Assembly (NCBI GenBank): GCA_019775845.1
Contig: JADQAV010000017.1
Coordinates: 558,001-622,000 of the forward strand
Length of the DNA stretch: 64,000 nt
Direction of reading: 5' to 3'
Source of the DNA: Myrmaecium sp. VS I D KN 1
Lineage: Eukaryota > Ascomycota > Dothideomycetes > Valsariales > Valsariaceae
Shown here one piece after another: positions 14,976-54,642 of the stretch; positions within the stretch are counted from its first letter, which is position 1; each line of letters starts with the position of its first letter. The notes beneath the pieces were generated by a model. That model had not been told where the DNA came from and made no database searches. It was given only the letters and a program-made list of their open reading frames with translations. A program made the translations under genes and the position numbers.

Positions 14976-16904
14976 ATGCCGGCCTACCAACCCCTCTTCA
15001 TCGCGCTCAACAACTCCAACGCCTTCGTCAAGCACCTCACCGCCCCTCTGCTCACCCTCCTCTTCTACTCTCCCCTCGTCCTGCTCGCCAGCCACTACTT
15101 CGGCTTCACTTCCAGCCTTCCCCTCGACTCCATCCGGAACTACTCTCCCGCTCGCCTTCTATCGGCGGTGCTGCCCTACCTCGCCGCCGCAGTCGCAGTA
15201 TGCCTTGCCACGAGGTTTCTAAGCGGCTCTCGCGCTGCTGAAGAGGAGGTTGCGCCTGGTACTCCCCGGAGGATCCCCGCTCCACCGTACTGGATTCCTG
15301 GACTGGGCAGCTTGCCCGAGTTTCTGCTGCGAGAGAGAAGCACGTTGGAGGGCGGAAGGTATGTCTCTTGAGTTCCCGGTAGGGACGGTCAACTGACTGT
15401 TATTCACATCCAGAGATGCCTCTCCACACGGCATCTTCGCCCTCAACCTCGCCGGACGCCGGCACAATATCGTCACTTCGCCCTCTCTGATCCGAGCAAC
15501 CTTGGCCAAGGCGGAACGAGAGGAACCATGCACCTTGATTGACGCCAATCTTCCAACTATCCTGCACCGAGTCTATGGCCTCCCTCCGAGCCAACAGATG
15601 CAGATCCGCCAGATCATCTCCTCAACGGAGGATCTCCGCCCGGAAGCCCTCCAGAAGCATCTGGAGGATCTCGTTCCCCTATTCCTCAAGCGATTGGAAG
15701 AGAACCTGCCTCACCTAGTCACCTTCATGGCCAGCCCAGTAGATCAGATGCCGTGGGAGCGCGCGACCACCGTGACCGTCTCCAAGACGAACGACGAAGT
15801 CACCATCGACCTACCGTAAGCCCCCTCCCCTCAACCTATGCCGCAGCACAACCCCTAACCCATCTCCGCTCTAGCACCCTCCTCCGCGAATTCATCGGTC
15901 ACACCTTCCTCCCCATCCTCCTCGGCACCACCCACCTCGACAACCACCCCAGCATCCCCACCGACCTCGCCACCCTGAGCAACTCCTTCCACGCCCTCGC
16001 CACCGGCCTCCCCCGCTGGCTTCCCCTCCCCGGTCTCGTCCCCGCCCACCTCGCCCGCCGCCACCTGCTCACCCACCTGACCACACCCCCCACCGACCCA
16101 CCCTCCCCCCTCCTCCCGCTCCTCCACTCCACCCTCCCACGCCCCCTCCACACCCCCCTCACCCTCACCCTCCTGCACACCCTCCTCACCCCCCTCAGCA
16201 CCCTCACCACCCGCACCGTCCTCCACCTCCTCTCCAACCCATCTCCTCTGCGCACCCAAACCCATCCCCACGCCACCCCCAGCCAACCCGCCCCCGCCAT
16301 CTCCCCCCTCTTCCCCGAACCCCCGCGTCTCACCTTCCATCCCCGAGGCCCATCGGGCCCCGCCGCCGTCGCGGCTGAGCAACTTCGCCGCACACCGCTC
16401 CTGCGCCGCGCTCTCATGCGCGCGGCAGCCGAGGATGATGCGGATGCGGATGGCGGGAGCGGGATGTGGCGGACGTTCCGCGTGGAGAGGGATACGGTGC
16501 TGGCCGCTGGGAAGGAGGAGGAGGCGAAGGAGGGGAAGGATAGCTTCGTACTTGGAAGGGGGGAGTTCGTGAGCCTTGTGCCTGGAATGGCGGAAGCGGA
16601 CGCGGCAGCGGCAGATGACGTGGATGCGGAGCCGGAAGATCAACCTCTAGAGCTCCCGCTCACCGCGCTGCTAGACGACGTCCTGCGGCGTGGCGACGGG
16701 AGGCTGGCTGCGGCGGCGGTGGTGCAGCGTTGTGTGGCGGCGGCGGTGGTGGGGGTGTTGCAGCTTTGGGATGTGGATGTGCTGGATTCAGGCTCTGATG
16801 GGAAGGGGTTGGGGGGATGGGGGAAGGGGGGGAGGGTGAGGCTGAGGAGGAGGAAGTTGGAGGGGTTGGAGGGTGAGGGTGAGGAGGAGGAGGAGGAACC
16901 TTAA
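14976..16904 (+). CDS. Cytochrome P450-like protein with degenerate heme region
   Basis: Exons 14976-15358, 15414-15815 and 15875-16904 give about 604 aa. An N-terminal hydrophobic part (LLTLLFYSPLVLLASHYFG and LLSAVLPYLAAAVAV) looks like a membrane anchor. Then PYWIPGLGSLPEFLLRE, SPHGIFALNLAGRRHNIV, FMASPVDQMPWERAT and LPRWLPLPGL follow the order of a fungal P450 family. The rest departs from it. The I-helix region is a Leu/Thr/Pro-rich low-complexity stretch, no ExxR pair is visible, and the heme loop FxxGxxxCxG is absent. A segment VVQRCVAAAVVGVLQLWDVDVL resembles the helix after that loop, but its Cys is not in the right place. The tail is basic and acidic low complexity. I infer a non-catalytic P450 relative. 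An unrecognised intron or assembly error in exon 3 is the alternative. Confidence 0.65.
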
Positions 16905-17563: not shown

Positions 17564-20500
17564 TCACACATCCCCAACATAAAACAACTTCACCGCCGCC
17601 ACCACCTTCCGGCGACACACGGGGCACACCTCCAACCGGCGCGCACACTCCAAGCACGCCAGCACGTGCCCGCAATCCACGAACGCCGCCTCCGCCGGCT
17701 CCTCCCAGCACACCCGACACAGCGGCTCCGCATGCTGCGCGGCGCGCCAGCGCGTGACGCCGGCCCCGAACCGGCGACCGCGGCGCCAGCCGCCCGCGTA
17801 CGCGTTGCCCGTCGCCGCCTCGACGAACGTGCCCGCGCCGTCCTGAAGGTCGGCGCGCCAGGCGCCGTCGTACGTGTCGCCGTTGCGGCGGACGAGGTGG
17901 CCGGCGTCGCCGTGCCGGAGCCCCAGGCGGAACCCGCCCGTGTACGTGGAACCGTCGTCGAGCGCGAGCAAGGTGCCCTGGCCGTGGCGGTGGCCGCCGT
18001 GCGCGAGCCCGCCTGCGTACCGCGACGTGCCGAAGTAGGCGAGCACGAAGTGTGGGCCTGCGGTGCGGTGGGGGAAGTTGCGCGCGTGCATGTGCGCGGC
18101 GAGGAAGTCGGCGAGCGAGGCGAGGCCGGCGCGGTCCGCGAGCGCGTCCGGGTCGGCGGAGGGTCGGCAGAGCACGATCACGCTGCCGTGCGTGAGGTCG
18201 TTCGTGGTGAAGGAGCGGTGGAGGCGGAGTTCGGGGGTGCGAGGGGAGGCCAGGTCGTCTTCCAGGTGGCCTTTGAGCGTCGATATCGCGGAGTCGGGCA
18301 GGTTGAGGAGGGGGAGGAGGACATCCCTAAGGTGGGAAGCGCGGTTGACGAGGTGGCCGCCCCGACTCTCGAGCGTCTGGGCGTCGGCATCGAAGTATTT
18401 GAGGAAGACAAAGATGTTCTCGTCCTGTGGCGGCGGAGCCGGTGGCGGCGGAGCAGTCTCAAGGATGGAACGGTGGTGAGGTGGATCTTCGGGCTCGCTC
18501 ACCCTCATCTCTGCATCAAGCGGCGGCGGTGGTGGTGGCGGCGGCGGAGGTGGCGGCGGGAGTTCTGCCGCTCCCGCCTCCGCTTGCGCCTCATCCCCAT
18601 CCTGCCCACTCATCGGCGTATCCTCCACGGTCGTCGTCCCAGACGGCGTAGTCCAATCGACCTCCGGCGACGGCGAGAGCTCCGCGTCCGGCGGGACGAG
18701 GTGGAGCCAGATGCGGAACCGGTGCGGGCGATCGCCGAACAGGCCGGCGACCGTCCAGTGTGCGTCGGGGAACTCGGCCGGATCGATGAACCGCGGCCGA
18801 AGCACGCTGCCCTCCCACACGTTCAAGAACCAGAACCGGCATTGGCGCGGCGACAAGATGGCGCCCACGGGCAGCCGCTCGGCCAGCCGCTCGCCCAGCA
18901 TCCACCGGACCTCCTCAAGCCTGTCCCGCCCCCGGAGCCGGACGGTAAAGGTGTGTTCCCCTCGCAACGCCGCCTCGTCAAACGGGTCGAGCGTGCCGGG
19001 CCCGCGGTGCTGTCGGAACACCTCGCTGCGATGGACGAGGACGTCGTAAGTCCAATCGGCGTACTGGGCTGCGGCCTGCACGTCGTAACCGCCCAAGTCG
19101 GGCCGGGGCAGGGCCGTGAACGACTGCAGCTCGCGCTTGACCGCCTCATCCGCCAGCCACGTCGGCAGCTCCCATTTCTCCTCGGTCCGCCCGTCGAACG
19201 CCCACGCGGCGAGGGCGAACCGCACGTAGACGGCCACGTGCGCAACGGCGTCGCTCCGCGCCTGTGGGGTCTGAGGGTCGTGGACGCGGGCGGCCTGCAA
19301 CTGCGTCAGGCGCCGGACATGGTTGTCGCCTCTGCCGTCGAAATAGGTGTACCACGCCGTGCCCGGGCCCCAGGGACGCACGACGGCGGTGTAGTAGCCC
19401 GACTCCAGATCGCCCTCGTGGCTGACGTACCCGAGCAGCACGTATCCTAATCCGCCCACCATTAGATGGTCGTCGAGCTTCACCCGCTGATTCAGCTTCG
19501 TCCACGCGCGCGTTTTCTCGTTGAACTCTTGCCGATCCAGCTCGATGGTCAAAACGTGGGGATCCTTGTCCAAAAAATGGGAGTCCTCAGGGTGGCCTTC
19601 CAGGGGCATCTTCCGGACCGCCTCCTGGAGGCTCTGACAACCCTTGATCGGGACCCGCGATTGCGGGTAGACGGTCCCCGAGAAGGTGCCCAAGACGTGG
19701 GCCAGCTCGGTCGCATGCGGCGTGCCCCGCAGCTCATCCTCCATCTTCTCAATCAGCATCTGCCAGATCTCCACGACGCCGATCGTCGACAGGTTCGTGC
19801 CGATCCCGTGCCACTCCAGCGCGCGGACGATGTCATATAGGCTCACGAGGTCGCGCGGCTCCCCCATGCCCAGGCGACGGGGGTTCCGCAGCCGGTAGAG
19901 CGTCATTTGTAGGGCCATGACCAGCTGCCACGGCCGGCGGTACGGCTGCGTGGCGTGATAGGGCAGTCGGATGTCGTAGAGGAACTGGCGGAACGGCTTC
20001 ATGTGCATCAGCATGGCGATGGCGGCGATGAAGCTGCCGCCGAATCGGTAGCCCGGGCATTCCATCGTCGAGATCCCCTGCAAGCCTGTCATTGCCAGGT
20101 TGCTCCACCGGTTGCTGAAGGGACCCGAGTGCTCGTACAGGCAGTTGGTCTCGTCCTCGATGGTTCGGATATAGGCGGTGAAGGCGAGCGTGTCGTTGCG
20201 CAGCATCGCCTGCCGCTGTCCGCGCTGGCGACGATGGATCTCGTAGTGGGGCCCGTAGAAGCGCGTCCAGCCCCAGTCCGGCGAGTTCACGCAGAACCGA
20301 TGGAGGCCGGAATCGTAGTGGTTGACCGTAGGCGCGTTCGGATTGTAGAGGAGGACCGAGATCTGTGCCGCCACGCTCTTGCGCTTCGGAATCGGCTTCG
20401 TGTCAAGCAGGGGGAGCGGAGTCTCCTGGTAGGCCTCGAAGGTTTTCTTCGTACCGTCGCTCGATTCGGCGGGCTTCCCTGTTGTCGAGATACCTTTGGT

Positions 20501-21816
20501 TTGTCCATTCCCTTGCGGCTCCGCCCCCGCCTCCGCATCCCCCAGGCTGACGCACTCCACATAAACGCTCAGATAATCCGTCCCGTTGCCGCGAGGGTAG
20601 AGCTTGATCCGCCAGTCGTAGCCGCCGATGTTCACTGTCGGGGATCGCATCAGGAGTTGTCGGTTCGGATTCTGCTTGGTGCCGTTGTACTTGATCGCCC
20701 ACTCGAGCCGGCCGCTGGCGGCCGGGCGGTAATCCGGGTCGTCGAGCGGGACGAACGTCTTCTTCTCCCAATACTCATCTAGCAAACGTTTGCATATCAG
20801 TTTCCGCGCTGCTGAAGTAATAAAAGGACAATCACACGATATGATGACTTACGATCAAAAGCGGACGTCTCTCCATACCGCTCAATCTCCCTCAACTCCT
20901 CCTCCTCCGGCACCGACAAGTCTTCCCGAATCGGAAGCCAGCGATAAACCATATCATCATCATCATCATCATCATCATCCTCCGAGGACGACCCCTCCGG
21001 CACAAAGGACGACCGCGCCGGCGAGGCAATCGGCGGCTGAACCTGGGACAAGCCGTCCGTCGACGCCGCGGCGACCGTCTCCGGGATGATAGTGGCAGGC
21101 ACTGCTCTCACCAGGTACAATGCTGGCGGCGGAGGCGGCGGGGGCGGCAGCGTTGGGGCTGCTGGGTGGATAACGCCGGCACCCTGCGACGGCGGCGGCG
21201 GAGGAGGTGGTGGTGGTGGTGGTGGTGGGGGCGCGCGGACGTTCCCACTAGGCGTTACGCCGTCGTCGTTGCCCCCACCGGCGCCGGCCTGCGTCCCGTC
21301 CGGCGTGGTGTCCATCACGTCCTCGCCTGCTGTGCTGTCCACCGCAGCGTCGTGCTGCTGATGCTGATACTGATACTGATAATGTTGTTCTTCTCGCTCA
21401 CTCGACAGCACCTCCGTAATCTCTAAATGTTCCGCATCCGTGTCTCTGTGGGCGGCGTTTCGGTCGTGGTTCTGGCCTTGCGCAGCGACGTCGGCGGGGG
21501 AGGTGCTGTGGGTAGTGATGATGGTGGTGGTGGTGGTGGTGGTGGTGGTGGTGGTGGTGTTGTAGTCGTTTGCAGTACTCGTCGAGGTGCCGCTCATCTC
21601 GCAATCTTCTTCGGGAGGCGGAGCAGCAGGCACGACCGGGGAAGCCTGATCTCGAGGCGTGTGTGCATGCAGGTGCGACGACGATGACGATGGAGCGAAG
21701 GATGAAGGAGAGGAAGGAAGGTGAGGAGGAGGAAGAGGAGGAGGAGGGCTGGGCGAGCGCGTTGCGAAGAGCAGCGGCGGCGGCTCGACGGTCGGTGAGC
21801 CGGTTGTCACACTCAT
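17564..21816 (-). CDS. MATH / pseudo-USP / USP7-type UBL / MORN / RING protein
   Basis: Exons 21816-20853 and 20778-17564 join across a 74-nt intron (GTAAGT...TAG) to 1392 aa. The first about 300 residues are disordered, with poly-Thr, two poly-Pro runs and an Asp9 run. A MATH domain covers about 345-530. A USP7/UBP15-like peptidase domain covers about 550-830, but the Cys-box position (about 569) reads YRFGGSFIAAIA with no Cys, and the His box reads ESGYYTAVVRP (about 783), where USP7 has GGHYVVY. A USP7-type ICP0-binding ubiquitin-like domain begins IFVFLKYFDADAQTL (near 1075). About four MORN-like repeats (YxGxxxxGxxHGxG) and a C3HC4-type RING (CRVCWEE...CGHVLACLEC...CPVC, 1342-1378) end the protein. 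I infer a ubiquitin ligase that recognises partners through MATH and a dead USP fold. Partners and location are unknown. Confidence 0.87.
20975..21560 (-). repeat. Amino-acid run cluster in the MATH/RING protein N-terminus
   Basis: Trinucleotide runs code for Asp (ATC on the plus strand, near 20955-20980), two proline runs (near 21127-21150 and 21186-21235) and a threonine run (GGT/GTG on the plus strand, 21517-21560). All are in frame with exon 1. Confidence 0.75.
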
Positions 21817-48183: not shown

Positions 48184-49015
48184 ATGCCTATGACTTGGAA
48201 CGCCGAGACCCAGCAAAAGGTTAGTTCAGCCAGACTCTGTCGATGATCTCTTGCTAAATCCCTACAGCTGTTTATTGGTATCTTCCAATGCACCAAAGTC
48301 TCACTCGGCAAAGAAATCCTCGAGAAGCTTGCCGAATACATGGGGCCTGGTAAGTCCCAACCACTCTCAGCCCATCGTCCTCCAAAAATTTCGACTGACC
48401 TCACCTCAACCAGAATGCACCCCCAAAGCCATCCAGCATCAGCTCACCAACATCCGCAAGCTCATCCCCGATCAGCTCAAGACTGCCGAGGGCGACGATG
48501 CTCCGCCCGCCACTCCCAAGAAGCGCGGTCGCAAGCCCAAGGACGCCACCACTCCCGCCGCCGGCACCGCGGTCAAAGAGGAGAACGGCGACGATGGCGA
48601 CGCTCCGGCCACGCCTGCGGCTACGCCGGGCAAGAAGCGCAAGCGCGCTACTCCCAAGGTCAAGACTGAGAGCACCGTGAACAGCGATGAGGATGCGGAT
48701 GCTGAGGGTACTGAGACCCCGAAGAAGAAGCAGAAGGCGGCCCCGAAGAAGAAGGCTGTCCCCAAAAAGACTGCGGCTCAGGTGAAGAAGGAGACTTCCG
48801 AGGAGGACAAGGATACTGACAAGGACACTGCGTCGTCGAAGTCAACCACCCCTGCTGCCGAGAAGGCCCCTACTCCTGCCCCAAAGGAAGTCGAGAAGGA
48901 TGTCAAGGTCAAGGCTGAAGTCGAAGTCGAAGCCGAAGCCGAAGACTCCCAGACTGTCGACGAGGAGGAGGAGGAGACGACTCCTGCTGCTAGCGTCAAG
49001 GAGGAAACTGTCTAG
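48184..49015 (+). CDS. Fungal Myb-like / AT-hook basic nuclear protein 1
   Basis: Exons 48184-48219, 48268-48349 and 48414-49015 join to 239 aa. The first 55 residues (MTWNAETQQKLFIGIF...GPECTPKAIQHQLTNIRKL) form a short fungal Myb-like helix-turn-helix domain. An AT-hook-like KKRGRKPK follows at about residue 76-83. The rest is Lys-, Pro-, Glu- and Ala-rich with several PKKK and KKRKR signals, and the last 50 residues are strongly acidic. It probably binds DNA or chromatin in the nucleus. Targets are unknown. Introns fall after QQK and in Glu before CTP, exactly as in the next gene downstream, so the two are tandem paralogs. Confidence 0.85.
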
Positions 49016-50144: not shown

Positions 50145-50588
50145 ATGCCCTCCTCACGCGGCATGACCTGGAACGCGGAGGCGAATGCAAAGGTACGTTT
50201 GTCGCCTCGTCGCATCAACTTCAATCGGAGTTGGCAAGAAGCAAAGAAAGCGTAAACTGACCCAACCCCAGCTCCTCACCGCCGTCCTCCACGTCCACGA
50301 CATCAAAAGCTCGCAAGAGCACCTCGCGCGTATCGCCGGCTACATGAGCACGAACGAGCAAGGTCCGTTTTTACCCCCCCTCCCCTCCCTCCCCTTCCCC
50401 CCTTCCCCATCCCCCGCCCAGCTCATCCCCCCCAAAACAGAATGCACCCCCCGCGCCGTCCGCGAGCAAATCGCCAAACTCCGTCGCACGGCCGGTCTCT
50501 CGGACGACAACGACGTCGTGGACCCAAGCACGCCGAAGAAAGAGAGGAAGGCGTGTGCGAGTGCGACGCCGAGAAGGAAGGGCGGTGT

Positions 50589-50619
<31 letters not shown>

Positions 50620-51187
50620 ACGACTGGCAAGCTGGGTGTTAAGATGGAGATGGATGAGGCTGAGGTGATGATGACGCCGGTGAAGAGGAAGAGAGATGGT
50701 GTGGTGGTTAAGAGGGAGGGCTTGGAGGAGGAGGAGGAGGTGGTGGGTGGTGGGGGGAAGAGGCGGAAGGCTGCTGTTACCGCTGGAGGTAAAGGCAAGG
50801 CGAAGCCCAAGGGTAAGAGTAAGGGTAAAGTCAAGATCGAACCTGGTCTTGAAGAAGAAGAAGAAGAAGAAGAAGAAGAANNNNNNNNNNNNNNNNNNNN
50901 NNNNNNNNNNNNNNNNNNNNNNNNNNNNNNNNNNNNNNNNNNNNNNNNNNNNNNNNNNNNNNNNNNNNNNNNNNNNNNNNNNNNNNNNAGAAGAAGAAGA
51001 AGAAGAAGAAGAAGAAGAGGCGGGAGAAAGCTCGCCAGCGATGGCGTTCGCACCGGGTGCGCGCGAGGATGGCTTGTTGGGCCGCGAGCGCAGTGTGGAG
51101 ATGGATGATGATGCTGGATTTGCTGAGAGGTTCTGGACTCAGCTTGTCGAGGTTGGTGAGAGGGGGGAGGATGGCGCGTGCGGATGA
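50145..51187 (+). CDS. Fungal Myb-like basic nuclear protein 2 (tandem paralog, split by gap)
   Basis: Exons are 50145-50192, 50272-50362 and 50441 onward. The N-terminus MTWNAEANAKLLTAVL...NEQECTPRAVREQIAKLRR aligns with gene 1, and both introns interrupt the same codons. The middle is Lys-rich (KKERK, KRKRD, GKRRKAA, KPKGKSKGKVK), then a poly-Glu run coded by GAA enters the assembly gap. After the gap the Glu frame continues to a stop at 51185-51187 with AGESSPAMAFAPGAREDG. With the gap written as 108 Ns the two sides are out of frame, so the true gap must be 2 modulo 3 if the Glu run is continuous. The end is therefore less certain than the start. Role is inferred only from the domain. Confidence 0.72.
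50849..51017 (+). repeat. GAA trinucleotide run with 108-N assembly gap
   Basis: GAA repeats flank Ns at 50881-50988. The gap most likely hides more GAA units that could not be assembled. Confidence 0.9.
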
Positions 51188-52662: not shown

Positions 52663-54642
52663 ATGCCTTCCAGCGACAACGGCGACGACGCTAGGCCAAG
52701 AAGCGAGCTCCTCGACCTCTCCTTTTCCGACCTCCCCTCGACCTCACCACCAAACTTGACCTTCAACTACACCGTTCACGTCCACTTCCACTGCCTCACA
52801 CTCGGCGATCGCACTCACCACCGTCCACTACACGCACCGCGGAGGACGGGCACCGAGGCGTTCCCTCCCTCACCATCTCACGACGCCGCCCGGCTTCGGC
52901 TGCCTCTGCCACGACGGCGTCCCCACCTTCCGCCCACCTTCAACAACCCTCGAAGACCGCGCGCAAGAGTACGTCGACCTCGAGACCAGGAGCAGCAGCG
53001 ACAGCAGCAGCAGCAGCAGCAGCAACATCTACAGCAACACCGACAGCAACACAACCATCGAGACCACCATTCACACCCACAGCCGCATCCTTCCCACTCC
53101 GCTCCCCTCCCCGAACCCCCGAGAACCGGCCGGACCAACCACCACCCACAGACACCTCACCATCCACCAGCCAGCCGACTCGCTGGTCGCTCACCCAGCG
53201 CATCTTCCACCTCACCGGGCTCTCCAAGACCCCGCCGCGCCCGCCCGCCTCCCGACTCTGGAATCCCATCAACTCGTCCCCACGCCCCAACGTCGTCGTC
53301 CCGCTCGCGCACCCGCCGCCGGCGCCGCCGCTCACCCGCGACCACGACACTCACCCCTACCTCGACGGCCGCGACGAGTACCCTCTCCTCACCCTCCCCG
53401 AGCAACGCAGCAGCCGCCATTACAGCACAGCGGGCGGTCTCGCCGCACCACCACCACCACCACCACCGAGCAGCCTCGCCGTCGAGCGATCCACGCCCAG
53501 CGCGGCCGGAAGCGGACGCACGAGCATCGGCCTGCCGCGGGATCGGCGGAGCTGGGGAACCTTTCAACAGCAGCAGCAGCAGTATCAGTACGAAGAACCG
53601 CGGACGCCCAGGGGAACGGCACGACGACACGCGATCGGTGAGCACAACAAGGGGAAGATGCCGATGGGCGGTGTCGAGGATGTGGGTGCCAAGTTCGCCG
53701 GGGTGGAGGACCGTCCGTCCACGGCGCGTCGGTCGCCGGGGGAATTGGAGGCTGGCTTGACGGTGGGATACACACATGCACAGCAGGAAGTCGAACGCCG
53801 CCCGTCCCGCGCGACGCTGCCGTCGTTGGGTCGGAGCGTGAGTCTCAACAGTCAGGGACGGAGCATGCGTACCGGCGGGGGACCCGGCGGCGCCAGAGGC
53901 GACGGACGCAGTATGCACGACGACGAAGAAGAAGAATACACCTGGGGCCCCTCGCACCCGTGCTTCCCGCACCTGAACCCGCACGTGCCCCTCGACTCCC
54001 CGCTCTACCACACCACCCGCATCATCCGCGTCAAGCGCGACTGGATGGTGGCCGGCGACCTGGCGCCCACCTTCGCGAACCTGTACCCGGAGGTGCTGGA
54101 ACCGGTCATGAGCGAGGCGACGTTCCGGCGCATCGTCGGGTTTGTGAACGCGGAGCTGCGCACGGCGTTTAGTCCGTGGAGCGTGCGGAGTTGGATCGAT
54201 GCCCTGATGGGGGTGGCGACGTTGTGGGTGTGGGAGGATGTCGGGTTGACGGGGGTGAAAGGGCGGCTGCGCCGGGTGGAGGAGAGGTTGGAATGCTGGA
54301 ATCGGGAGGAGGGGGTGAGGGAGGGCTGGAGGGTTATTCCCCTCAGGCGCACGGGGTATTTGACGGTGAGTTGGGTCCTGCTTCTTGCGCACTGCGTGGG
54401 TGGGTGGGTTTTGCTGACTGGGTGAACAGTTGGATATACAGATCCCCGACCCCCATATTCGGATCGATGGCGAGGAGGATGGGGATGAGGGGGGTGGTGC
54501 GGTGAGTGTCAGGACGGCTGATCACCACCGCCCGGATACCCGCCACACGCTCGATCAGTCCCCCCCAACGGCGACGGCGACGATGCCGCGGGATGGGAAG
54601 GAGATGGGCCCGTGGCCGGGGGCTGGGTTGAGTTCGCGATGA
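52663..54642 (+). CDS. ERF4 / Golgin A7-domain protein (palmitoyltransferase subunit type)
   Basis: The firm part is one frame open from 52695 to 54365, spliced (GTGAGT...ACAG) to 54430-54642. It contains RWSLTQRIFHLTGLSKTPPR, RDEYPLLTLPEQRSSRHYST and, at the end, the ERF4 domain: TWGPSHPCFPHLNPHVPLD, TTRIIRVKRDWMVAGDLAPT, FRRIVGFVNAELRTAFSPWS and VWEDVGLTG. Yeast Erf4/Shr5 and human Golgin A7 are partners of DHHC enzymes that palmitoylate Ras. This frame has no ATG until 53658. My best start is ATG 52663, joined over an intron 52774-52844 whose donor (GTTCAC) is weak. That gives 614 aa. The 5' end is uncertain and the domain part is solid. The N-terminal half has Ala, Pro and Gln runs and is disordered. 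Confidence 0.72.

Follow-up and report, generated by a model that had tools for sequence, protein, structure and literature searches.

In the genome of the fungus Myrmaecium sp. VS I D KN 1, we find a gene whose product is probably a RING-type ubiquitin ligase built on the scaffold of a catalytically dead deubiquitinase of the USP7/Ubp15 type, with targets chosen via its MATH domain. The gene lies in a stretch of 64,000 nucleotides (assembly GCA_019775845.1, contig JADQAV010000017.1, positions 558,001 to 622,000 of the forward strand), in the following called the window. It is located on the minus strand with two exons (21816-20853 and 20778-17564) and encodes 1392 amino acids; positions given below are those of the window, and all features of this gene refer to the minus strand. 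The chain comprises, in this order, a MATH domain, a domain related to ubiquitin-specific proteases (USP), two ubiquitin-like segments (UBL1 and UBL2), a block of four MORN-like repeats and, at the C-terminus, a complete RING of the C3HC4 type. What is read from the sequence itself is this domain order, the loss of the catalytic Cys and His, a peptide pocket in MATH that is kept, a pocket in UBL2 that is lost, and a complete RING. From there on, we infer protease inactivity, ligase activity, dimerisation and target choice by MATH.

Domain architecture

A preliminary description of this locus had proposed MATH, a USP-like domain, a USP7-type UBL, MORN-like repeats and a C3HC4 RING within one chain. 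Pfam profiles, matches to solved chains and shuffle controls bear this out. The Pfam scan was carried out with the protein encoded by exon 2 (residues 323-1392), using curated cut-offs and listing matches at E up to 1. Four of the five domain types (MATH_2, UCH, USP7_ICP0_bdg and zf-C3HC4_3) exceed their cut-offs, and MORN falls slightly short. For the shuffle controls, alignment scores against human USP7 were compared with 1000 shuffles each. The score of a negative control, a C-terminal stretch aligned to the USP7 catalytic domain, was matched by 121 of the 1000 shuffles. The MATH, USP, UBL1 and UBL2 parts stand in the same order as in human USP7, with MATH placed before the USP domain as in the USP7/Ubp15 family. 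Because single-sequence searches against solved chains are weak, membership in the USP7 family rests on the Pfam profiles and the domain order. The only NCBIfam match reached 13.5 bits at a cut-off of 299.

USP7_C2 is not among the Pfam matches listed up to E 1, a range in which the HMMER filters drop most matches above approximately 0.1. The MORN-like repeats and the RING occupy the place of this part, although a very diverged remnant of it is conceivable. In USP7, the USP7_C2 part activates the catalytic domain. The loss of the active site and the loss of the activating tail seem to go together in the present protein.

RING domain and MATH pocket

The RING (17567..17719) is identified by zf-C3HC4_3 (44.8 bits, cut-off 27) and by its similarity to the RINGs of IAP proteins. 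All eight zinc ligands are present in C3HC4 order (C1342, C1345, C1357, H1359, C1363, C1366, C1373 and C1376). The best solved RINGs are those of BIRC2 (cIAP1), BIRC3 (cIAP2), BIRC7 and XIAP, with E values from 3.1e-10 to 1.8e-8, followed by MYLIP. Alignments are free of gaps against BIRC2, BIRC3 and XIAP and contain one gap against BIRC7, and they span both R1377 and F1387. V1344, P1374 and R1377 are aligned to BIRC2; we take the first two to be E2-contact positions and R1377 to be the linchpin Arg, all of which presumably matter for ubiquitin transfer. R1377 corresponds to Arg in BIRC2, BIRC3 and BIRC7 and to Tyr in XIAP. F1387 lies opposite the tail Phe of the IAP RINGs, a position which we assume to matter for RING dimerisation. 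IAP-type RINGs can dimerise.

The MATH domain covers approximately residues 340-533 (20144..20725) as judged from MATH_2 and a MAFFT alignment with USP7. MATH_2 scores 40.9 bits at a cut-off of 32, with its best stretch at residues 355-399. Aligned separately to USP7 with BLOSUM45, the two halves of the domain obtain scores that are matched by 5 and 3 of 1000 shuffles, respectively. The domain contains an insert of about 57 residues (20381-20551), which, as read by eye, could contain a small unrecognised in-frame intron. In the MAFFT alignment, D489-W490 (20273..20278) takes the place of USP7 D164-W165, which belong to the substrate-peptide pocket of MATH. This pair is described as essential for interactions of the USP7 TRAF (MATH) pocket, which recognises P/A/ExxS peptides (excerpts of PMC6203733). 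Among the further USP7 positions, F118 is found opposite Y394 and R104 opposite K380, the latter moving to R384 in a shifted register chosen by eye.

UBL segments and MORN-like repeats

UBL2 (residues 1105-1195, 18158..18430) is assigned by USP7_ICP0_bdg (31.0 bits, cut-off 27) and by shuffles, of which 0 out of 1000 reach its score against USP7 with BLOSUM45 and 2 out of 1000 with BLOSUM62. A UBL1-like segment is placed at approximately residues 930-1020 (18683..18955), and its score is matched by 7 of 1000 shuffles (BLOSUM45, local alignment). MAFFT gave no sensible alignment of UBL1, so the assignment rests on the local alignment.

According to excerpts of PMC6203733, the second partner pocket of USP7 is formed by D762/D764 in UBL2. 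Here, this acidic pocket is lost, with H1185 and S1187 in its place. The preliminary description held that both MATH and UBL were retained for finding or holding ubiquitinated partners. Of the two, MATH keeps its D489/W490 pair, and UBL2 has lost its pocket; the retained partner-finding part is most likely the MATH pocket. Holding of ubiquitinated partners is unsupported, because the MATH pocket reads P/A/ExxS peptides rather than ubiquitin and the fingers, which grip ubiquitin, are shortened.

Four MORN-like repeats occupy residues 1240-1332 (17747..18025). The units are 24-25 residues long and follow a YxG pattern, with starts at 1242, 1267, 1291 and 1315. Pfam MORN reaches 20.8 bits, slightly short of the cut-off of 22.5. 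Stronger support comes from solved MORN proteins, which match the block with E values down to 6.8e-14; in the main stretches, HMMER puts the bias in composition at 7 to 13 bits. Membrane or lipid contact of this block, as suggested earlier, appears weak in view of TbMORN1, for which the abstract of PMC7725318 reports binding of individual phospholipids only and none of membranes or vesicles. The same abstract describes the repeats as modules of protein-protein contact that serve dimerisation and oligomerisation. The repeats probably serve to link proteins rather than membranes.

Alternatively, the chain may be a scaffolding pseudo-deubiquitinase. In that case, it would use the USP-like part and MATH to assemble a complex, and its RING would serve only for dimerisation, of which IAP-type RINGs are capable, or for self-ubiquitination that sets the level of the protein. 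We consider this unlikely, though not negligibly so: all eight zinc ligands, the presumed linchpin Arg and the presumed dimerisation Phe of the tail are kept as in active ligases, and the retained MATH pocket pair fits a targeting ligase better. In favor of a scaffold, pseudo-deubiquitinases are described in parts of PMC10919355 as activators of other deubiquitinases or as scaffolds, with USP39/Sad1 taking part in the assembly of the spliceosome and PAN2 in deadenylation, and MORN repeats can dimerise (abstract of PMC7725318).

Loss of the active site

The USP-like domain extends approximately over residues 549-848 (19199..20098) and has shortened fingers. It is supported by UCH (41.1 bits, cut-off 23.9) and by the shuffle control against USP7, where none of 1000 shuffles matches the score (BLOSUM62). 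A phmmer search of this region against solved chains at E up to 10 returned 28 sequences, 25 of them USPs and three unrelated; the USP matches are weak, with E values of 0.08 to 1.5. In the MAFFT alignments, parts of the finger region of USP7 are absent.

The catalytic His column is occupied by Tyr783 (19394..19396). The GGHY of USP7 is replaced by SGYY, so that His464 corresponds to Tyr783 in both MAFFT alignments, and the same residue is found in the alignments with USP47 and USP28 (stretches of 4.7 and 12.5 bits, respectively). The catalytic Cys column holds a Gly, the exact position of which depends on the alignment. Cys223 of USP7 corresponds to Gly564 in both MAFFT alignments; the gap-free alignment with USP28 gives Gly569 (20036..20038), in a stretch scored at -2.7 bits by HMMER. 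This alignment puts Gly569 where the nucleophile-bearing helix of USPs begins. In the third catalytic column, Asp481 of USP7 is aligned to Asp802 (19337..19339) in both MAFFT alignments, whereas USP47 and USP28 give Phe801 instead. The loss of both the catalytic Cys and the catalytic His, which had been claimed before, is thus confirmed, with Gly in the one column and Tyr783 in the other.

Two Cys are left in residues 541-861, namely C562 and C702. Either of them might rebuild an active site together with another His, in which case one chain would both add and remove ubiquitin. The Asp in the third column relative to USP7 would suit such an atypical deubiquitinase, and non-canonical activity has been claimed for USP39 and USP52 (parts of PMC10919355). 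Nevertheless, the His column holds Tyr, the Cys column holds Gly, the fingers are shortened, and C562 is located seven residues ahead of Gly569, which makes this alternative improbable.

Gene model

The two-exon model was read by eye. Exon 1 (20853..21816) encodes residues 1-321, a low-complexity N-terminus rich in Pro, Ser, Thr and Asp. The intron (20779..20852) comprises 74 bases with a GTAAGT donor, a CTAG acceptor and a branch-like CTGAT site. Exon 2 (17564..20778) carries every recognisable domain and ends with the stop codon at 17564-17566. Joining the exons on the minus strand confirmed the coordinates and the length of 1392 amino acids given previously. The frame of exon 2 is uninterrupted from 20776 to 17567, i.e., over 1070 codons. 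At the third codon position, each of the domains from MATH to RING has a GC of 0.82-0.96, compared with 0.67 for the low-complexity N-terminus. Owing to the open frame and the high third-position GC, we regard the product as a single coding chain and reject a misjoining of two genes.

An unannotated intron that conceals an active site was likewise rejected for both boxes. At the Cys box, the extra stretch relative to USP7 comprises five residues in the MAFFT alignment and is therefore too short for an intron; the His box is aligned to USP7 without a gap. That a cryptic intron or an assembly fault conceals the true Cys and His, or fuses two genes, is hence very improbable, given the 1070-codon frame, the third-position GC of every domain, the short Cys-box stretch and the gap-free His box, even if the model was read by eye and small in-frame introns are conceivable, e.g., in the MATH insert.

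Proposed function

For the ligase on a dead deubiquitinase scaffold, the following course of events is proposed. MATH would select the target with its Asp-Trp pocket, by which USP7 recognises P/A/ExxS peptides. The dead USP domain, together with UBL1 and UBL2, would act as a rigid spacer or as a surface for protein binding and docking, and the MORN-like repeats would self-associate or hold a partner. The C-terminal IAP-type RING would dimerise through its tail with a second RING and hand over the ubiquitin of a charged E2 to the target bound by MATH.

Several points weigh against this interpretation. The similarity of the whole MATH stretch to USP7 is weak, as its score is matched by 30 of 1000 shuffles (BLOSUM62). 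With the MATH region without its insert, a phmmer search of solved chains at E up to 10 returned four sequences, with no USP7 among them. Two scans each of viral contigs and of prokaryote genomes, where fungal relatives are not expected, gave no relatives. AlphaFold predictions from single-sequence input were uninformative, with a mean predicted local distance difference test score (pLDDT) of 35.5 for residues 323-1392 and of 37.0 for 296 residues of the USP-like part. Finally, USP52 lacks the triad, and deubiquitinase activity has been reported for it (parts of PMC10919355); loss of the residues is therefore no proof of inactivity.

The protein had also been described as a USP7 relative turned from a remover into an adder of ubiquitin. 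As far as the sequence goes, it is a relative whose Cys and His are gone and which carries a RING agreeing at its key positions with active IAP-type RINGs. The order of events, and with it the direction from eraser to writer, is what we infer; alternatively, the ancestor may have gained the RING first. A broader picture, which we consider doubtful at present, would be that of a conserved fungal ligase that recognises, through a shared MATH pocket, the short peptide motif read by the active protease Ubp15 and competes with it for the same targets, one adding and the other removing ubiquitin, and that came about when the protease site decayed and a RING took the place of the activating tail. If the ligase reading proposed above is right, a deubiquitinase scaffold would have been reused as a ligase with its target-choosing pocket kept. 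It would then provide a direct test of whether a ubiquitin writer and eraser can share one recognition code, and a pseudo-deubiquitinase having an obvious present-day job.

Genomic surroundings

The genes in the neighborhood are ordinary. By Pfam, they encode a D-2-hydroxyacid dehydrogenase, a Myb/SANT protein, an RsmB/F-type methyltransferase, a chaperonin and an ERF4/Golgin A7 family protein (53658-54425, plus strand; PF10256, 116.7 bits); THO2 is found as well. Two of the seven neighboring frames scanned have no Pfam match. A long open frame at 15753-16904 (plus strand) shows no Pfam match at E 0.001, and its first part, as judged by eye and unconfirmed, recalls a segment of a cytochrome P450. 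The neighboring frames 48251-49015 and 50185-51108 (both plus strand) encode basic low-complexity proteins with a common ECTP(K/R)A core. They are 35% identical in a two-sequence alignment that includes the second frame up to 50800, and are possible tandem duplicates. A run of 108 N at 50881-50988 represents an assembly gap or a masked stretch.

Comparison with known systems

Some Aspergillus proteins are annotated as 'MATH and UCH domain protein' and may belong to this family; in open-licence full text in PubMed Central (PMC), the phrase gave no paper. In the same full text, a MATH-USP-RING chain, or a pseudo-deubiquitinase fused to a competent-looking RING, was not recognised in the titles, abstract openings and passages of the matches listed. 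Passages of papers on fungal deubiquitinases (PMC9599802, PMC2935449, PMC6627422 and PMC3375289) do not mention such a chain, and the Magnaporthe table of PMC9599802, as excerpted, has one UBP15 homologue.

MORN proteins such as MORN1 and RSPH1 resemble our protein in its four YxG units of 24-25 residues; they differ in that the block found here is short and its Pfam MORN score lies below the cut-off. The IAP ligases cIAP1, cIAP2, XIAP and BIRC7 provide the closest solved RINGs, which are aligned through the C-terminal tail. Unlike them, the present protein is without a Pfam-listed BIR domain, and its targets would be chosen by MATH.

To our knowledge, neither USP39/Sad1 nor USP52/PAN2 has a MATH domain, a USP7-type UBL or a RING. 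Like our protein, these pseudo-deubiquitinases have a USP domain in which the usual residues of catalysis are missing; USP39/Sad1 differs by its role in splicing and its zinc finger, and USP52/PAN2 by its role in deadenylation and its nuclease domain (parts of PMC10919355). Since pseudo-deubiquitinases of the USP family are thus on record in that source, the protein is of a kind already known.

The closest likeness in architecture is to USP7/HAUSP and the fungal Ubp15 proteins (Ubp5 and Ubp15 of S. pombe and Ubp5 of C. neoformans, as described in excerpts of PMC9599802, PMC3375289 and PMC2935449), in which MATH, USP and the USP7-type UBLs follow one another as they do here; with USP7, the protein also shares the Asp-Trp pocket of MATH. 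It differs from USP7/Ubp15 by the lost Cys and His, the shortened fingers, the lost UBL2 pocket and a USP7_C2 part that was not found, as well as by the added MORN-like repeats and RING and a long low-complexity N-terminus.

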